Position numbers and translations under genes: made by a program
The notes under the pieces: model-generated
The model's input: the letters and a program-made list of their open reading frames with translations, nothing else
Told to the model about the DNA's origin: nothing
Databases searched by the model: none
In this document: piece by piece, positions 15,671 to 34,922 of the stretch
How the letters are laid out: the number at the start of each line of letters is the position of its first letter
Numbering within the stretch: position 1 is the first letter of the stretch
Source: Gemmatimonadota bacterium
GTDB taxonomy: Bacteria > Gemmatimonadota > Gemmatimonadetes > Gemmatimonadales > Gemmatimonadaceae
Direction of reading: 5' to 3'
Assembly (NCBI GenBank): GCA_028287345.1
Contig: JAQBPV010000149.1
Coordinates: 1-55,194, forward strand
Length of the DNA: 55,194 nucleotides

Positions 15671-17353
15671 ATGACCTCACGACGACAGTTTCTCGAGCAG
15701 ACGGCACTGGCAGCGGTGGGACTCTCGCTGCCTGCACCTCGATTCGAGGCGATCCAGGCGCCACGCGGTTTTCTCGATGTGCGTCGCACGCCAGACAGCG
15801 TCTCCGTTCAGACCGCAAACGGCGAGGTGCGTCTCGCACGGGCCGCCAACGGTCGTTGGAGCGATGGGGGTACGATCGTCACGACGTCAGAGCGCAGCGA
15901 TGCGCTGAACGTCTCACTCGCGGCGCCGGCGGTCGCGATCACGCGGGTGCATCTCCGCTGGCGCGCGCGCTTGACCGACGTACGCCTCATCCTCGGCGAC
16001 GCCTGGGAGCGTGGCTATGGTGATCTGGAGTGGCGGTCATGGGTGCCAGACCGCGTCATGCCGTGGTACGCCGCGACGTACGATGGTTCGCTGACTCACT
16101 CGTACGGTGTTCGCACCGGAGCGCGTGCGTTCTGCTTCTGGCAGGTCGATCCCGAGGGGATCTCCCTCTGGGCCGACGTGCGGAGTGGCGGCGTCGGCGT
16201 GCAGCTCGGTGATCGCGTGCTCGACGTCTGTGATGTGATGTCGCGTGCGGGTCGCCAAGGCGAGACGGCATTCGCTGCGCTGCATGCATTCTGTCGACAG
16301 ATGTGTCCCAACCCGCGTCTTCCTGCGCAGCCGATATATGGAAGCAACGACTGGTATTGGGCGTACGGAAAGAACAGCGCGCAGACCATCCTCACCGACA
16401 CTCGCCATATCGTCGAGCTGTCGCCGTCGGGAGGCACCCGTCCATTCTCGGTGATCGACGACGGTTGGCAGCCGGAGCGTAGCGCGGACAAGATGGGCGT
16501 CGGTACATGGGATCACGGCAACGAGAAGTTTCCCGACATGCCGGGGCTCGCCGAGGAGATTCATCGCTCTGGTGCAAGGCCAGGCGTGTGGATTCGTCCG
16601 CTGCAGGCAATGAAGGATGCGCCGGAGTCCTGGCGTCTTCCGCGCGACAAGGCGTATCTCGATCCGACGGTGCCCGATGTATTGAAGAAGGTCGGCGACG
16701 ACATCGCGCGGCTACGACAGTGGGGCTACGAGCTGATTAAGCACGACTACACGACGTTCGACTTGTTCGGCCGCTGGGGATTCCAGATGGGCGCGGCGAT
16801 GACGCGCGACGGGTGGACGTTTGCTGCCGGTCCGACGCGGACGACGGCTGAAATCATCGGTGAGTTGTACGGTACGATTCGCCAGGCCGCCGGCGACAGT
16901 CTCGTCATCGGCTGCAACACGGTCAGCCATCTGTCAGCGGGGCACTTCGAGATCTGCCGCATCGGCGACGACACGAGCGGCACCGAATGGGCGAGGACGC
17001 GGAAGATGGGCGTGAACACGCTGGCGTTCCGCGGCGCGCAGCACGGTGCGTTCTATGTGGCCGACGCGGATTGTGTCGGCGTGACGAATGCGATTCCGTG
17101 GGCGCAGAACAAACAATGGCTCGACCTCCTGGCACGCAGCGGCACGATGCTGTTCGTCTCGCTGGCACCCGACGCACTCGGCGCCGAGCAGCGACGCGAT
17201 CTCAAGGAAGCGTTGGCACTGGCAGCCGCACCGCATCCCCTCGCCGAACCGCTCGATTGGCTGACGACCGTCTATCCGTCGCGCTGGAAGATGCTGGGTC
17301 GTGAGCGGACGTTCGACTGGATCGGCGAGGAGGGCGCGGGGTTGTCTCACTGA
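15671..17353 (+). CDS. Sip1/raffinose-synthase-like alpha-galactosidase (GH36-like), Tat signal
   Basis: TSRRQFLEQTALAAVGLSLPA twin-arginine signal; VIDDGWQPE and LIKHDYTTFD resemble GH36 active-site motifs. ATG at 15671. Confidence 0.8.
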   Translation: MTSRRQFLEQTALAAVGLSLPAPRFEAIQAPRGFLDVRRTPDSVSVQTANGEVRLARAANGRWSDGGTIVTTSERSDALNVSLAAPAVAITRVHLRWRARLTDVRLILGDAWERGYGDLEWRSWVPDRVMPWYAATYDGSLTHSYGVRTGARAFCFWQVDPEGISLWADVRSGGVGVQLGDRVLDVCDVMSRAGRQGETAFAALHAFCRQMCPNPRLPAQPIYGSNDWYWAYGKNSAQTILTDTRHIVELSPSGGTRPFSVIDDGWQPERSADKMGVGTWDHGNEKFPDMPGLAEEIHRSGARPGVWIRPLQAMKDAPESWRLPRDKAYLDPTVPDVLKKVGDDIARLRQWGYELIKHDYTTFDLFGRWGFQMGAAMTRDGWTFAAGPTRTTAEIIGELYGTIRQAAGDSLVIGCNTVSHLSAGHFEICRIGDDTSGTEWARTRKMGVNTLAFRGAQHGAFYVADADCVGVTNAIPWAQNKQWLDLLARSGTMLFVSLAPDALGAEQRRDLKEALALAAAPHPLAEPLDWLTTVYPSRWKMLGRERTFDWIGEEGAGLSH

Positions 17354-18888
17354 TCCCGCGATAGCCCGCGGCGGTGAAGTGTGGCACCGATCTGCGCCGC
17401 CTGTTCGAGCAGCGCGTCTATGTCAGTGGCCTCCGTGCGGAAGTTCACGATGCATGCGCGCAGCGCGAACCGCTCGTCGATGACCGCATTGGAGGGAAAG
17501 ACGCGCCCAGCCATCTGCAGCTCCGTCATCAGTCGCTCATTCAGCTTGTTGAGATACGGCTCCGCTGATGCGACACCGCGAAGCTCGCGAGGGACGTAGC
17601 GAAAGCAGGCGATCGACAGCTCGGGCGCCGGACCTACCGTCTCGAGGTCGGCGTGCGTCGACGCGCGTCCGTAGAGGTATTGCGCGAGCTCGACGTCGTG
17701 CGCGATGCGGCGTTCGTAGGCACTCCAGCCGTGCGCGAGCAACGACACCCAGATCTTGAGCGCGTGGAACCCTCGCGAGAATTGCGGCCCGAGCGTGTAC
17801 ATGTCCGCGCCCCGGCCCGTCAACACCTTGTCCTCGTAGGTGTAGCTGGGATCGATCGAGAAGGCGTCGGCGAGCGACTGCATGTTGCGCACGACGAGCA
17901 CGCCACCGGAATGCGGCGTGTACAGCCACTTGTGGGGATCGAGCACCACCGAGTCGGCGCGCTCGATGCCGCGAAAGAGTGGAGACAGCGCGTCAGTCAG
18001 CGCGGCGACGCCACCGTACGCGCCATCGACGTGCAGCCACAGCCCGAATTCGGCGCAGATGTCGGCGATCTGATCGAGTGGATCGATGGCGCCTGTCGAT
18101 ACAGAGCCCGCGGTGGCCACCACAGCGATCGGCTTGTGGCCAGTGCGGATGTCGCGCGCGATGGCGAGGCGCAGCGCGTCGGGTCGCATGCACTGCAGCG
18201 CGTCGCATGGCACGAGACGAAGCGCCTGTCGCCCGAGCCCGAGCATGTCGACGGCGCGAGCGTTGACGTCGTGCACCTGCGCCGACGCATATACGGTGAG
18301 CGGCGGACCGGCGCGCGTTCCGAGCTCGCGGATGGACCATCCGGCGCGCGCATCGCGCGCGGCCTTGAGCGCCACGAACGCGCCCATGGCTCCGCCCGAC
18401 GTCACGTATCCGCCAGCGCCTTCAGGAAGGCCGAGCCTGTGCGCGAACCAGCGGCCCAGGTGCAACTCGATCTCCGTGGCGCCGGGTGCGAGCCGCCAGC
18501 CGCCGACATTTTGATTGAGCGCGGCGGCGAGGAGATCCGCTGCCGCTCCCGGCACGGTGCCGGATCCGCTGATGTACCCCATGAATCCGGGGTGGCCCGT
18601 ATACGTGGAATGCTCGAAGGCCAACGTCCGCAGCGAGTCGATGAGCTCATCGGTGTCGAGCGGCTCGTCTGGCACGTTGCGCAACACGGATGCGCGCACC
18701 TCGGCAGCCGTATCACTCTTCGCGACGGGCAGGGAGGGGAGTCGCTCGAGCAACTCGATCCAGATGTCGAGGACCTTGCTGCCGAACTCGCGGGCGCGAT
18801 CCGCATCCCAATCCAGGTCGGTCACTGGCTCCGGCACGGTACCCTCGGCGAAGAACACAGGGAATAATGTCGTCTCGTCAAGCTGCAT
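17347..18888 (-). CDS. Pyridoxal-dependent (group II) decarboxylase family protein
   Basis: PLP-Lys motif DPHKWLYTP, GFMGYISGSGTVPGAAADLLAAALNQNVGGW, HVDGAYGG. Stop overlaps convergent gene. Confidence 0.92.
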   Translation of the reverse strand: MQLDETTLFPVFFAEGTVPEPVTDLDWDADRAREFGSKVLDIWIELLERLPSLPVAKSDTAAEVRASVLRNVPDEPLDTDELIDSLRTLAFEHSTYTGHPGFMGYISGSGTVPGAAADLLAAALNQNVGGWRLAPGATEIELHLGRWFAHRLGLPEGAGGYVTSGGAMGAFVALKAARDARAGWSIRELGTRAGPPLTVYASAQVHDVNARAVDMLGLGRQALRLVPCDALQCMRPDALRLAIARDIRTGHKPIAVVATAGSVSTGAIDPLDQIADICAEFGLWLHVDGAYGGVAALTDALSPLFRGIERADSVVLDPHKWLYTPHSGGVLVVRNMQSLADAFSIDPSYTYEDKVLTGRGADMYTLGPQFSRGFHALKIWVSLLAHGWSAYERRIAHDVELAQYLYGRASTHADLETVGPAPELSIACFRYVPRELRGVASAEPYLNKLNERLMTELQMAGRVFPSNAVIDERFALRACIVNFRTEATDIDALLEQAAQIGATLHRRGLSRDQ

Positions 18889-18949
18889 GACACTCGAGCT
18901 CTCATGAAGGTGAGGCCGGCGCGCTGGACGATGCGCGCCGGCGTTCGAT

Positions 18950-19423
18950 CTATCTCTTTCCGACGATTCGCGGCGTGTCCGCGGGATTGATGTAGGTCAG
19001 CGCGAATGGCCCGATCGCGTGCACCTGCACGACGGTGAGCCCCTGCGCCTGGGCGTAGTGTGCCTCGTTCGCGGGCGCGCTCACGAAGCCGCCGGCGTTG
19101 AGGGTCAGCATGCCGTTGCTCTCGAACTTCTTGCCCATGCCGAGGCGGAGTGTGCCGCTGATGACCGTGACGTTTTCGTCGGTCGGGTGCCAATGCGGCG
19201 CGATGGTGTATCCGCTCGGGAAGCGGAGGCGGACGGTGAAGGGTTCGGCCTTGCCGGGGTTGCCCTGCATCACGGCCATCTGCGCGCCGGCGGGAAACAC
19301 GGCTGGGGCGGGGCCCCACTTGGGTTCAGATGCAGTGTGGCGGTCAGCCTGCGCGGATGCGGTGGCGCCAGCGAGGGTGAGCAGGAGTGTAGCGGCGGTG
19401 AAACGCATGTCGATGATCTCCAT
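18950..19423 (-). CDS. Cupin-domain exported protein
   Basis: Signal peptide MRFTAATLLLTLAGATASAQA; cupin motif APHWHPTDENVTVISGTLRLGMG. Confidence 0.85.
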   Translation of the reverse strand: MEIIDMRFTAATLLLTLAGATASAQADRHTASEPKWGPAPAVFPAGAQMAVMQGNPGKAEPFTVRLRFPSGYTIAPHWHPTDENVTVISGTLRLGMGKKFESNGMLTLNAGGFVSAPANEAHYAQAQGLTVVQVHAIGPFALTYINPADTPRIVGKR

Positions 19424-19756
19424 TTGGGGGCCTGGCTCAACCGGCCGGCGACATCACCGGCGCGGTACGTGGGCAGAGGATATCCTCGAATGGGAAGCGA
19501 GTCTCCGTGACAAGTACGGGGAAATTCAATTTCTGTACGGGTTCTTTGGCGTGCGGCGGCCTTCTTCACTTCCCGGATCCTGCGAGACGGTGTTTGTCGT
19601 CAACGCAGTAGTTCGTGCGCTTGAGCGCCTACGTGGCCGGATTCGAATCGTTCCGGCGCCGCAGCACGGATCGCGTCACGCAACACGCCTCACTCCGTCC
19701 GGCGCGCCGCACGCCGCATCGGCTGTGGCACCTCACGCCGCACGACTGCCGCACGA

Positions 19757-31319: not shown

Positions 31320-31502
31320 ATGAGAACCTACGTCATAACGACCGGCGCGATCTTCGGCCTGCTGGTTGTTGCTCACATCTGGCGCATGATCGAAGAAAAC
31401 CCGCAGCTGGCGACGGACCCTTCATACCTCGCGATCACGTTCGTCGCGGCCGCGCTCTGTCTTTGGGCCGTTCGCCTCGTCACTCGTTCCGCGCGCACGT
31501 GA
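31320..31502 (+). CDS. Small hypothetical membrane protein (60 aa)
   Basis: MRTYVITTGAIFGLLVVAHIWRMIEENPQLATDPSYLAITFVAAALCLWAVRLVTRSART; two TM-like segments. Confidence 0.6.
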   Translation: MRTYVITTGAIFGLLVVAHIWRMIEENPQLATDPSYLAITFVAAALCLWAVRLVTRSART

Positions 31503-31895
31503 CGGGCGTTCCACCGGCGGTCTCCAGCGCACTCGACGCACTCGCAGTGGGTCGCGAAACGTCGGCGGTTCTGCTCAGCAAACGGCGACACGCCGTCCGT
31601 CGCGCCGTGCCGCGGATTCCGCGCGTGCTTGGCGTCGAGTTCGTATGGCGCTTCGATGAATTCGCGCGTGTCATGCCGCTCTCGGCGAATCAAACACCAC
31701 TGGGCGACGCCGTTGCGTTTCTGGGCTGGCTCAGGAAGAATGCGCTCCTGCCGCGAGAGCTGCGCCGTCTCGGTATCCGGTTGCGCTGGCGGCGAGTTCG
31801 CTCGTGGTGGAGGGGGCGTGTAAGCGCCTGACGACAAAGCGCACCGGAAACCGAGTGATACTCACGCACTCGGATTCCAGTGCACCTGTGCGCTG

Positions 31896-32069
31896 TCACG
31901 TATGTGAAAGGTGGCCGCCCGCGCACGGATCATCGACAATTCGCTTGATTCCTCCGCCCTTGACCTTGTCGACGTCCTCGGGCCGCGCGTCGAGATCCTT
32001 GTTGATGTCCATTTCCGAACTGGTCTTGCCCGGCTGTGCGGACTTCTGGGAATCTGGTGCCTTGGCCAT
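31896..32069 (-). CDS. KGG-type leader peptide, candidate RiPP-like precursor (57 aa)
   Basis: AGGAGG 5 nt before ATG 32069. MAKAPDSQKSAQPGKTSSEMDINKDLDARPEDVDKVKGGGIKRIVDDPCAGGHLSHT; acidic leader, DVDKVKGG motif, short Cys-containing tail. Confidence 0.7.
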   Translation of the reverse strand: MAKAPDSQKSAQPGKTSSEMDINKDLDARPEDVDKVKGGGIKRIVDDPCAGGHLSHT

Positions 32070-32134
32070 ACGTGCCTCCTGGGCCGCATGAAATGGAGAG
32101 GTATATTCGTCGCGTCCTTCCCCAGGAGTCAAGC

Positions 32135-32950
32135 GTGAGCGAAGCGGGCGCGGCGGCGCGCGAGGTTCTGGTCGGGGCGCTGTCGTCACATGTTGCGGCT
32201 GCGTCTGGACCTACGCCCGATTTGCTCACTCAACTTCTTATTCGACTGCGGAAGCCGGCCGGCGATGATGACTCGCTCGTCCACTCCCTCGTCGCGTTCG
32301 CGGGTGTGGATGACGATCGGCGCGCGGAGTTGACCAACATCGTCGGTGTTGCGGCGCGCGAGCTGGCGCCGGACGATGTGCCGCCAGTGCGCGGCGCGGC
32401 GGCGGAGGCGTGGCGGGCGCTGGTCGTCACCGCCGATCGGTTGCATGGCAGCGGTGCGTACGCACTCGGCCGACCGGCATTCGTCACCGACCGATTGCTG
32501 GGATTGCTCGTCGAAGAGTCGCGCGCAGAAAGACCGAGTGATCTCGGGGGACGTCGCGCGACGTCGGCTCCGGGCGATGTTCTCGCGGCGCTCGCGGTGA
32601 GCCGTCAGCTCGCGACTGCGATGAACGATGCGCTCCCGTTCAAGGTGGTGCCGACGTACGACGCGCTATACGAATACGATCCGCCGGGAGGTCGGGTGCG
32701 CACGCATGTGGATTCGCGCGACTTCGAGATCGTATTCCACCTGTTGCTGGAGCAGCCGTCGCCGGCAGGCGAGGAGGCGAAGTCGGTGCTCGTGGTGCAT
32801 CGCCCGCTGGAGAGTGAGCCGAGTCGGCTGCGTCTTCGCGTGGGAGAAGCTGTCGTGCTGCGCGGACGCGGGACGATTCACTCGTGGGAGCCACTCGGGC
32901 GAGAGGAAACGCGCACGCTGGTGGCCGTCGGATTCACGCGGAAAACGTGA
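32135..32950 (+). CDS. Putative 2OG-Fe(II) oxygenase (prolyl-4-hydroxylase-like C-terminal fold)
   Basis: YEYDPPGGRVRTHVDSRDFEIVFHLLLEQ (HxD), LRVGEAVVLRGRGTIHSWEPLGREETRTLVAVGF (distal His, Arg). AGGAG precedes GTG 32135. Confidence 0.68.
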   Translation: MSEAGAAAREVLVGALSSHVAAASGPTPDLLTQLLIRLRKPAGDDDSLVHSLVAFAGVDDDRRAELTNIVGVAARELAPDDVPPVRGAAAEAWRALVVTADRLHGSGAYALGRPAFVTDRLLGLLVEESRAERPSDLGGRRATSAPGDVLAALAVSRQLATAMNDALPFKVVPTYDALYEYDPPGGRVRTHVDSRDFEIVFHLLLEQPSPAGEEAKSVLVVHRPLESEPSRLRLRVGEAVVLRGRGTIHSWEPLGREETRTLVAVGFTRKT

Positions 32951-32962
32951 GCCGGAACTACA

Positions 32963-33097
32963 CAACTGCCTGACACGGATGACAGACGCGGATAACTACG
33001 CGGATTTACACTGATACGACAGAGAACAAAAAAGTCTTCGTCGTATCCGTGAAAATCCGGCCGTTAATCCGTGTCAGTTATCCGCGTCAAGCAGTTG
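32963..33097. repeat. Long imperfect inverted repeat of GGAT/ATCC-rich units between convergent genes
   Basis: CAACTGCCTGACACGGATGACAGACGCGGATAACTACGCGGATTTACACTGATACGAC pairs imperfectly with GTCGTATCCGTGAAAATCCGGCCGTTAATCCGTGTCAGTTATCCGCGTCAAGCAGTTG. Confidence 0.75.
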
Positions 33098-33128
33098 TTT
33101 GTTTCTGTGGTTCCGTGGTTCTGTCTCT

Positions 33129-34922
33129 CTACAAACGCGGACGAGTCACACGCGGCACCTTGCCGCAGTTGGTTGGCCAGTTCGCCGGCCACGTGCCCGG
33201 CGACTTGTCGCGCTTGATGAACTCCGGATCTTCGCTGGCGAGGTACGCCATCATCGCCGCGAGGGTCGCGTTGTGCTTGAGGTCATCGAACACGACCTTG
33301 TCATACGTGTCGCGGTTGGTATGCCACGTGTAGGTGCCGTAGTTCCACTGCACGGCGCCCATGCCGAACGACGGCGTACCGAAGCACGCGAACACGGCGC
33401 CGTCGGTGCCGCCCGGATTTCCCGTCGGCACGTCGTTGAAGCTCCACGACACCACGTTGTTGCTCATGCTGTCGGTGTAGAAGCTCGGCAGCTGCATGTA
33501 CCACGACTTGAGATGGCGGCCGATGTCGGAAAGGCCGGACGACGACAGCGACTGCACGCGACCCGTTCCGTTGTCCTGATTGAACAGCGCCTGCAATCCC
33601 TTCATCACTTCGGGGTGATCCTCGGTGAACGCTGTCGAGCCGTTGAGACCCTGTTCTTCGCTCGCCCAGTGTCCCACCATGATCGTCCGCTTCGGATGCG
33701 GATACGCCTGCTTGAGGATGCGCATCGCCTCCATCGCCATCATGGTGCCGGTGCCGTTGTCCGTCGCGCCGGACGATCCATCCCACGAGTCGAAGTGCGC
33801 GGATAGCATGACGTATTCGTCAGGCTTCTCGGTGCCCTTGATGACGCCGATCGTGTTGAACGCCGGCTGCTCGCCGAGCTGCTTGGCGTCGACGTCGAGC
33901 CGCACGACGGGCTTCTGGTTGTTCGCGGCGAGGCGATACAGAAGGCTGTAGTCCTCGCACGTGAGCGTGACCGCAGGTGCCGTCTTGTTGTACGTCTCGA
34001 ACACTTCGATGACGCCCCAACCGCCCGAGCCCTGCTGCGCTGCCGCTCCGCGACCAGCACCACCACCAGCCTGCGCGCCGCCCGGGGGTCCGCCGCCACG
34101 TGCGCTCGCCGGTCCGGGCGTCTGCCCACCGCCCCGTCCACCGAAGCCGCCGCCAGCACCTGCCGGTGCGAATGGGTTGTTGAAGCCACTCAGCTTGTTG
34201 CGCGACGAGATCATCCCGGCGACGCCGGCCTTCTCGAGCCGCATACCGAGGGTGCCCGTGCCGAGTGCCAGGGAGTAGCCCGTGCCGCGATAGAGCTTGG
34301 TGCTGTCAGGCTTGCCGCTCGCGTCGGTCATGACGGCCCAGTCGCGCTGCATGAGGCCGATGAGCGTATCCATGCGCGCGCGCGACTCCGCAGTGGCGAA
34401 GCGGTTCCAATCCTCTGAGGGACGGCAGGTCGGCCACGCCGGCGACAGCAGGACGATCTTGCCCTTCGCCTTCGGCAGCCATTTCACGAACTCGGTGCTG
34501 TCGGCGAACTTCGGCAGCACGATCGCCTCGGCCTTCACCGGTTTGCCGTTGGTTCCCGGACTCCAGGCGAGCATGGTTCCCTCGAGGGAGCGGACACGCG
34601 GTTCGACGAGGTCGATGTGCGAAACACCGCGCTCCCAACCACGCCAGGTGCCGTACTGCTCGCGCCTGGCGTCGATGCCCCACGACTTGTACTTGCCGAT
34701 GACCCAATCGCTCGCGTTGCGGATGCCGGGGCTGCCGGTGAGGCGCGGGCCGATGGAATCGAAGAGCGTCTGCGACAGCGACTGGACCTGCGAGCTGTCC
34801 ATGCCGAGGCGCCAGATGCGCTGCAGCGTGGGATCGTTGGTCGGAAACTGCTGGGCAGAAAGGGGAACGGCGCCCAGGAGAGCGAGGGCGCCGACGACGG
34901 AGATTGTACGGAAAGGGGTCAT
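33129..34922 (-). CDS. M28 family zinc peptidase, secreted
   Basis: SAHFDSWDGSSGATDNGTGTMMAMEAMRIL, GHWASEEQGLNGS; N-terminal signal peptide. Confidence 0.92.
   Translation of the reverse strand: MTPFRTISVVGALALLGAVPLSAQQFPTNDPTLQRIWRLGMDSSQVQSLSQTLFDSIGPRLTGSPGIRNASDWVIGKYKSWGIDARREQYGTWRGWERGVSHIDLVEPRVRSLEGTMLAWSPGTNGKPVKAEAIVLPKFADSTEFVKWLPKAKGKIVLLSPAWPTCRPSEDWNRFATAESRARMDTLIGLMQRDWAVMTDASGKPDSTKLYRGTGYSLALGTGTLGMRLEKAGVAGMISSRNKLSGFNNPFAPAGAGGGFGGRGGGQTPGPASARGGGPPGGAQAGGGAGRGAAAQQGSGGWGVIEVFETYNKTAPAVTLTCEDYSLLYRLAANNQKPVVRLDVDAKQLGEQPAFNTIGVIKGTEKPDEYVMLSAHFDSWDGSSGATDNGTGTMMAMEAMRILKQAYPHPKRTIMVGHWASEEQGLNGSTAFTEDHPEVMKGLQALFNQDNGTGRVQSLSSSGLSDIGRHLKSWYMQLPSFYTDSMSNNVVSWSFNDVPTGNPGGTDGAVFACFGTPSFGMGAVQWNYGTYTWHTNRDTYDKVVFDDLKHNATLAAMMAYLASEDPEFIKRDKSPGTWPANWPTNCGKVPRVTRPRL

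Follow-up and report, generated by a model that had tools for sequence, protein, structure and literature searches.

Results

A short peptide gene lies head to head with a putative oxygenase gene

The locus studied here raises the question of whether a short peptide, P1, is the substrate of OX, a putative 2-oxoglutarate (2OG)-Fe(II) oxygenase encoded next to it, and how such a peptide would then be cleaved and exported. Both genes lie in a 55,194-nt stretch of DNA (the window), which is contig C322 of a 6.08-Mb assembly of 543 contigs (91.8% complete, 5.6% estimated contamination); we take the assembly to be a metagenome-assembled genome (MAG) and its host to be a soil-type bacterium. A preliminary description of this DNA had placed P1 and OX divergently, each behind its own Shine-Dalgarno site, and our reanalysis arrived at the same coordinates, starts, ribosome-binding sites and spacing, with 65 bp between the two start codons (Table 1). 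P1 starts at ATG 32069 with AGGAGG 5 nt upstream (CAGGAGGCACGT-ATG) and runs to 31896, stop codon included, and OX starts at GTG 32135 with AGGAG 6 nt upstream (CCAGGAGTCAAGC-GTG). The G+C content by codon position of OX (0.77/0.51/0.74) fits a coding sequence, and the fit is weaker for P1 (0.62/0.45/0.71). That P1 is a spurious open reading frame (ORF) was ruled out by its leader relatives, described below, together with its Shine-Dalgarno site. No sigma-70 consensus promoter was found in 31400-33200.

Table 1. Features of the P1-OX locus in window coordinates.
Feature	Position	Strand	Basis
P1, putative 57-aa KGG-leader peptide, MAKAPDSQKSAQPGKTSSEMDINKDLDARPEDVDKVKGG/GIKRIVDDPCAGGHLSHT (slash, predicted C39 cut)	31896..32069	-	Shine-Dalgarno site and leader relatives
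P1 predicted leader, residues 1-39, ending in DVDKVKGG	31953..32069	-	Alignment to DLPxxP...VKGG leaders
P1 predicted core, 18 aa, GIKRIVDDPCAGGHLSHT, single Cys	31899..31952	-	Unlike other cores
Divergent intergenic region, 65 bp, holding both Shine-Dalgarno sites	32070..32134	.	
OX, putative 271-aa divergent 2OG-Fe(II) oxygenase, H191/D193/H249	32135..32950	+	

The predicted P1 leader resembles those of other KGG peptides

P1, which reads DLDARPEDVDKVKGG at its double-glycine site, matched none of the Pfam and NCBIfam models. Relatives were collected in several ways. The DNA pattern DL...VKG had 35 matches in the same genome, and one of them, on contig C11, plainly encoded another short KGG peptide. 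When 399 genomes of the phylum were searched with a profile of P1 and the C11 peptide, a tandem pair of peptides on C189 of the P1 genome, one peptide in genome G145 and several in G149 were added. Three on C501 and further ones in G149 came from reading the loci that encode C39 peptidases, and one on C286 from a wider profile. The genome of P1 thus holds at least seven further KGG peptides (one on C11, two on C189, three on C501 and one on C286). The typical leader pattern of these peptides is DLPxxP...VKGG, and the peptides of G145 and G149-C69 adjoin a C39-ABC transporter and an HlyD-like protein. In G149, locus L082:9270-9980 encodes a tandem array of three GG-leader peptides, each with two Cys and a conserved DPCxKPAxLPG tail.

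When the P1 leader was realigned with these leaders and scored against its own shuffles, p values of 0.000-0.007 were obtained for G149a, G145, C501a, C286 and an L085 leader, of which the C501a and L085 leaders had been found by their position near an exporter and not by similarity to P1. The same test gave p values of 0.19 and 0.24 for C501b and C501c. For the P1 core, the best p value of ten comparisons with other cores was 0.15. Together, these values indicate a conserved leader and a variable core, as the preliminary description had envisaged for P1. A Cys core motif, PCA..G.H, common to P1 and the C11 peptide was non-significant after correction for the ten comparisons and was not used. 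A leader profile built without P1, but including some leaders found via P1-derived queries, ranked P1 first among the 666 ORFs of the window (E 9e-4; runner-up, E 2). Profiles of only three or seven independently found leaders missed P1, and we therefore base the leader assignment on the pairwise tests and the wider profile. By these comparisons, P1 very probably carries a real KGG leader of the double-glycine, C39 type.

OX is probably a divergent 2OG-Fe(II) enzyme

OX stayed below the cut-offs of all Pfam and NCBIfam models, as did its nearest homologue. Around the second His, OX showed weak similarity to the HalD/BesD-type amino-acid halogenases and hydroxylases (PF23169; HalD, E 0.07). OX aligned to a plasmid protein of Metabacillus sp. 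B2-18 annotated as "2OG-Fe(II) oxygenase" with 30% identity over 232 aa (E 8e-18), and a chain of homologues led from the Metabacillus protein to Glutamicibacter and on to Streptomyces. The HxD...H...R signature that had been read from OX at the outset could be assigned to residues 191-193 (HVD), the distal conserved His H249 and R260 at H+11, and H191, D193 and H249 were invariant in a six-member homologue alignment. R260 is thereby the candidate in OX for the conserved basic residue expected to bind 2OG; five of the six instead have Arg at H+2, where OX has Trp.

A profile of this six-member alignment matched the PDB weakly (best E 0.034), and the matches were 2OG enzymes by name or known identity, including a lysine halogenase, halogenase B, clavaminate synthase, a TauD-like protein and a P. 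putida protein that we take to be a prolyl hydroxylase. The same profile also detected, at E 6e-7, proteins from the same bacterial family whose matches to HalD and PF13640 exceed the cut-off. Single-sequence AlphaFold models (pLDDT 37 and 43) were too poor to assess the double-stranded beta-helix fold expected of such enzymes, and Foldseek gave weak cupin-like matches only. The invariant triad, the PDB matches and the proteins that bridge to HalD and PF13640 make it highly probable that OX is a divergent 2OG-Fe(II) enzyme of an unnamed family. In HalD-type halogenases, the Fe-ligand Asp is replaced by Gly or Ala. As OX retains Asp193, we ruled out a HalD halogenase; halogenation would be unexpected, and oxidation is favoured.

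Most OX homologues are encoded in RiPP-type surroundings

We examined the genomic settings of the OX homologues in a small sample consisting of plasmids only. The S. cadmiisoli locus encodes a YcaO protein, a cupin, HlyD, two NHLP exporters and a peptide with a GG site and weak similarity to NHLP leaders. In Glutamicibacter, a 40-aa peptide is found with the 2OG enzyme, a methyltransferase, an MFS exporter and a weak match to an aKG-HExxH peptide hydroxylase (E 0.0035, below cut-off). In both Streptomyces NBC_01244 and NBC_01006, a TPR-2OG fusion adjoins an HExxH protein (match to TIGR04267 at E 3e-5, below cut-off); on the NBC_01244 plasmid (L114:3939-6447), a 52-aa peptide with two LTRRLDHSVPDG repeats lies beside these two genes, and the whole looks like an uncharacterised RiPP cluster. 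Gene content thus supports placing the Streptomyces and Glutamicibacter homologues in RiPP-type clusters. The locus of the nearest homologue, from Metabacillus, comprises a 97-aa ORF, a NodU-like carbamoyltransferase (identified by sequence inspection) and annotated MFS and GNAT genes; it appears natural-product-like, and its RiPP nature is less clear. The S. cadmiisoli, Glutamicibacter and Streptomyces NBC proteins share with OX the divergent 2OG family, the invariant H, D and H and RiPP-type surroundings, but differ in having other leaders and peptides, directly adjacent partner enzymes and only 16-25% identity to OX. To our knowledge, none of them has been characterised.

Closer to the host, neither P1 nor OX was found in 60 relatives, and OX was not found in the 399 phylum genomes; OX search matches at E 4e-4 to 8e-3 were weak, covered short stretches that mostly missed the catalytic part and were set aside. 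An empty-site test via the neighbouring M28 peptidase gene showed no conserved synteny. Two scans of genome contigs, together with viral contigs and phages, gave no homologues, the genome-contig patterns being poor and hence weak evidence of absence. As no second genome with the pair was found among those searched, and neither gene was found in relatives, the exact P1-OX pair rests on one MAG.

The C39 exporters of the genome are encoded on other contigs

The preliminary description had seen no protease or transporter near P1, which is correct for C39 exporters: the window contig encodes no C39 peptidase, and only two C39 matches exist in the genome, on contigs C501 (E 3e-40) and C11 (E 1e-34). 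The C501 locus (L047:7338-16279) encodes a cNMP-C39-ABC exporter (PCAT), HlyD, a sigma-54 activator, the three KGG peptides, an ATP-grasp ribosomal peptide maturase (TIGR04187, E 2e-67, under the strict cut-off) and a PpiC-type partner protein that exceeds the family cut-off of TIGR04500. Judged by these protein families, it is a graspetide-type locus. The C11 locus (L048) encodes a C39 transporter, an HlyD-like protein and an NHLP-like peptide (16263-16625) with the Cys-containing tail GGGCTACGAS; a gene at 17478-19721, judged by eye, probably encodes a YcaO protein. Among the ORFs neighbouring P1, no ATP-grasp protein was recognised by reading.

With the exporters and the graspetide-type locus encoded elsewhere, P1 appears to be an orphan precursor that is presumably processed in trans, and its leader likeness makes C501 a better guess than C11 for serving it. 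The preliminary description had called P1 and OX a minimal peptide-modification pair. A KGG peptide beside a 2OG-family enzyme is indeed what we find, yet the pair is not self-contained, as cleavage, export and possibly ring formation would come from C501 or C11.

Discussion

A model in which OX tailors P1 before export in trans

The identities of both genes have good support. We infer, with moderate confidence, that OX tailors the P1 core and that KGG cleavage and export follow in trans. P1 would give rise to a modified peptide of ribosomal origin, and OX, a non-haem Fe(II)/2-oxoglutarate oxygenase, would hydroxylate at least one core residue in the cytoplasm; desaturation or another oxidation appears less likely than hydroxylation. 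A C39-peptidase ABC transporter from elsewhere in the genome would next cleave the modified precursor behind GG and export the product; the C501 transporter, which has three other KGG peptides as neighbours, is the likeliest candidate. Tailoring of P1 by OX is favoured by the adjacency of the two genes, by how rarely OX occurs and by the RiPP-type surroundings of most OX homologues. It is weakened by the pair turning up in only one of the genomes searched, by the less clear RiPP setting of the nearest homologue, from Metabacillus, by the Trp of OX at H+2, by the failure of the independent-leader profiles to find P1, by the estimated contamination of the MAG and by the unrelated neighbours of the other orphan KGG peptides.

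Those neighbours also bring up the possibility, to which we give about one-third of the weight, that P1 is a genuine orphan KGG peptide exported in trans while the substrate of OX is an amino acid or small molecule and the two genes are neighbours by coincidence. As the other KGG peptides of the genome adjoin unrelated genes, the adjacency of P1 and OX could be accidental, and no OX-like oxygenase was found beside any of the other KGG peptides examined. The remote relationship of OX to HalD-type amino-acid halogenases and hydroxylases, and the Metabacillus homologue with its carbamoyltransferase, MFS and GNAT neighbours, are consistent with such an unrelated role. However, OX is rare, as none of the relatives searched has it, and RiPP-type clusters hold its Streptomyces and Glutamicibacter homologues; that two rare RiPP-type genes should come to lie 65 bp apart by accident is less likely than that they are functionally linked.

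If OX does tailor P1, ring formation might come first. The rosaritide graspetide locus (MirABCD) combines TIGR04187, TIGR04500 and PCAT and is described without a 2OG oxygenase (PMC13097080). C501 has the same three protein families together with KGG peptides, and the P1 leader resembles one of the C501 leaders; P1 and OX lie outside the C501 locus, and recognition of P1 by its ATP-grasp enzyme is putative. In corallotide, a Lys-Asp ring forms within KIVAD, followed by DP, and the 2OG-Fe(II) enzyme CorC hydroxylates the Lys after ring closure (PMC13097080). The P1 core contains K-R-I-V-D-D-P, and the pattern K-x-x-x-D-D-P occurred in 58 of 200000 core shuffles and in no other ORF among the 666 of the window. 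The likeness to CorC thus lies in a divergent 2OG-Fe(II) enzyme together with a ribosomal peptide holding such a stretch, the activity of OX on P1 being putative. By this analogy, P1 could be a graspetide-type precursor: Lys and Asp of KRIVDDP (i to i+4) would be joined into a ring by the ATP-grasp enzyme of C501, and hydroxylation of this ring by OX would follow. We consider this improbable, as the likeness is short and was noticed post hoc; moreover, the other C501 cores do not have the motif, OX matches no Pfam family above cut-off whereas CorC belongs to PF13640, and P1 has no adjacent ATP-grasp gene. Slighter still is the prospect of a general scheme in which orphan KGG precursors across the genome share one graspetide and export locus and single orphans keep a private tailoring enzyme, such that P1 would be cyclised (Lys-Asp) in trans by the C501 ATP-grasp enzyme before OX hydroxylates it, which would make OX the founder of a new family of 2OG-dependent RiPP hydroxylases. 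Least probable of all is that P1 is exported and used unmodified, as a bacteriocin-like or signalling peptide whose KGG leader serves secretion alone: C39 exporters handle unmodified peptides too and most orphan KGG peptides of this genome have no neighbouring modifying enzyme, but P1 directly adjoins a 2OG enzyme from a family found in RiPP-type clusters.

The proposed tailoring of P1 by OX with cleavage and export in trans has a partial parallel in the prochlorosins, whose dispersed precursors are served by one central machinery. Here, too, many orphan precursors have a common leader type and unlike cores; in contrast to the prochlorosins, the gene next to P1 encodes a putative tailoring enzyme, and the part of the central machinery would fall to a C39 exporter. 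If correct, this reading would extend the RiPP tailoring enzymes by a divergent 2OG-Fe(II) family that has no name yet, and would exemplify a scattered arrangement: the orphan precursor is paired with a modifying enzyme of its own but relies on another locus for cleavage and export. Genome mining anchored on transporters or known enzymes would overlook such pairs.

A dispersed repeat downstream of OX

Between OX and the M28 peptidase gene that follows it, the window contains a 151-nt near-perfect palindrome (32955-33105) with a predicted fold of -77.9 kcal/mol (z -12.2). The palindrome belongs to a dispersed repeat family with 70 matches in the genome at E <= 0.001. Many of these span both arms only (positions about 9-63 and 89-143), and some are paired ~150 bp apart; overall, the repeat resembles elements of the MITE or REP type.
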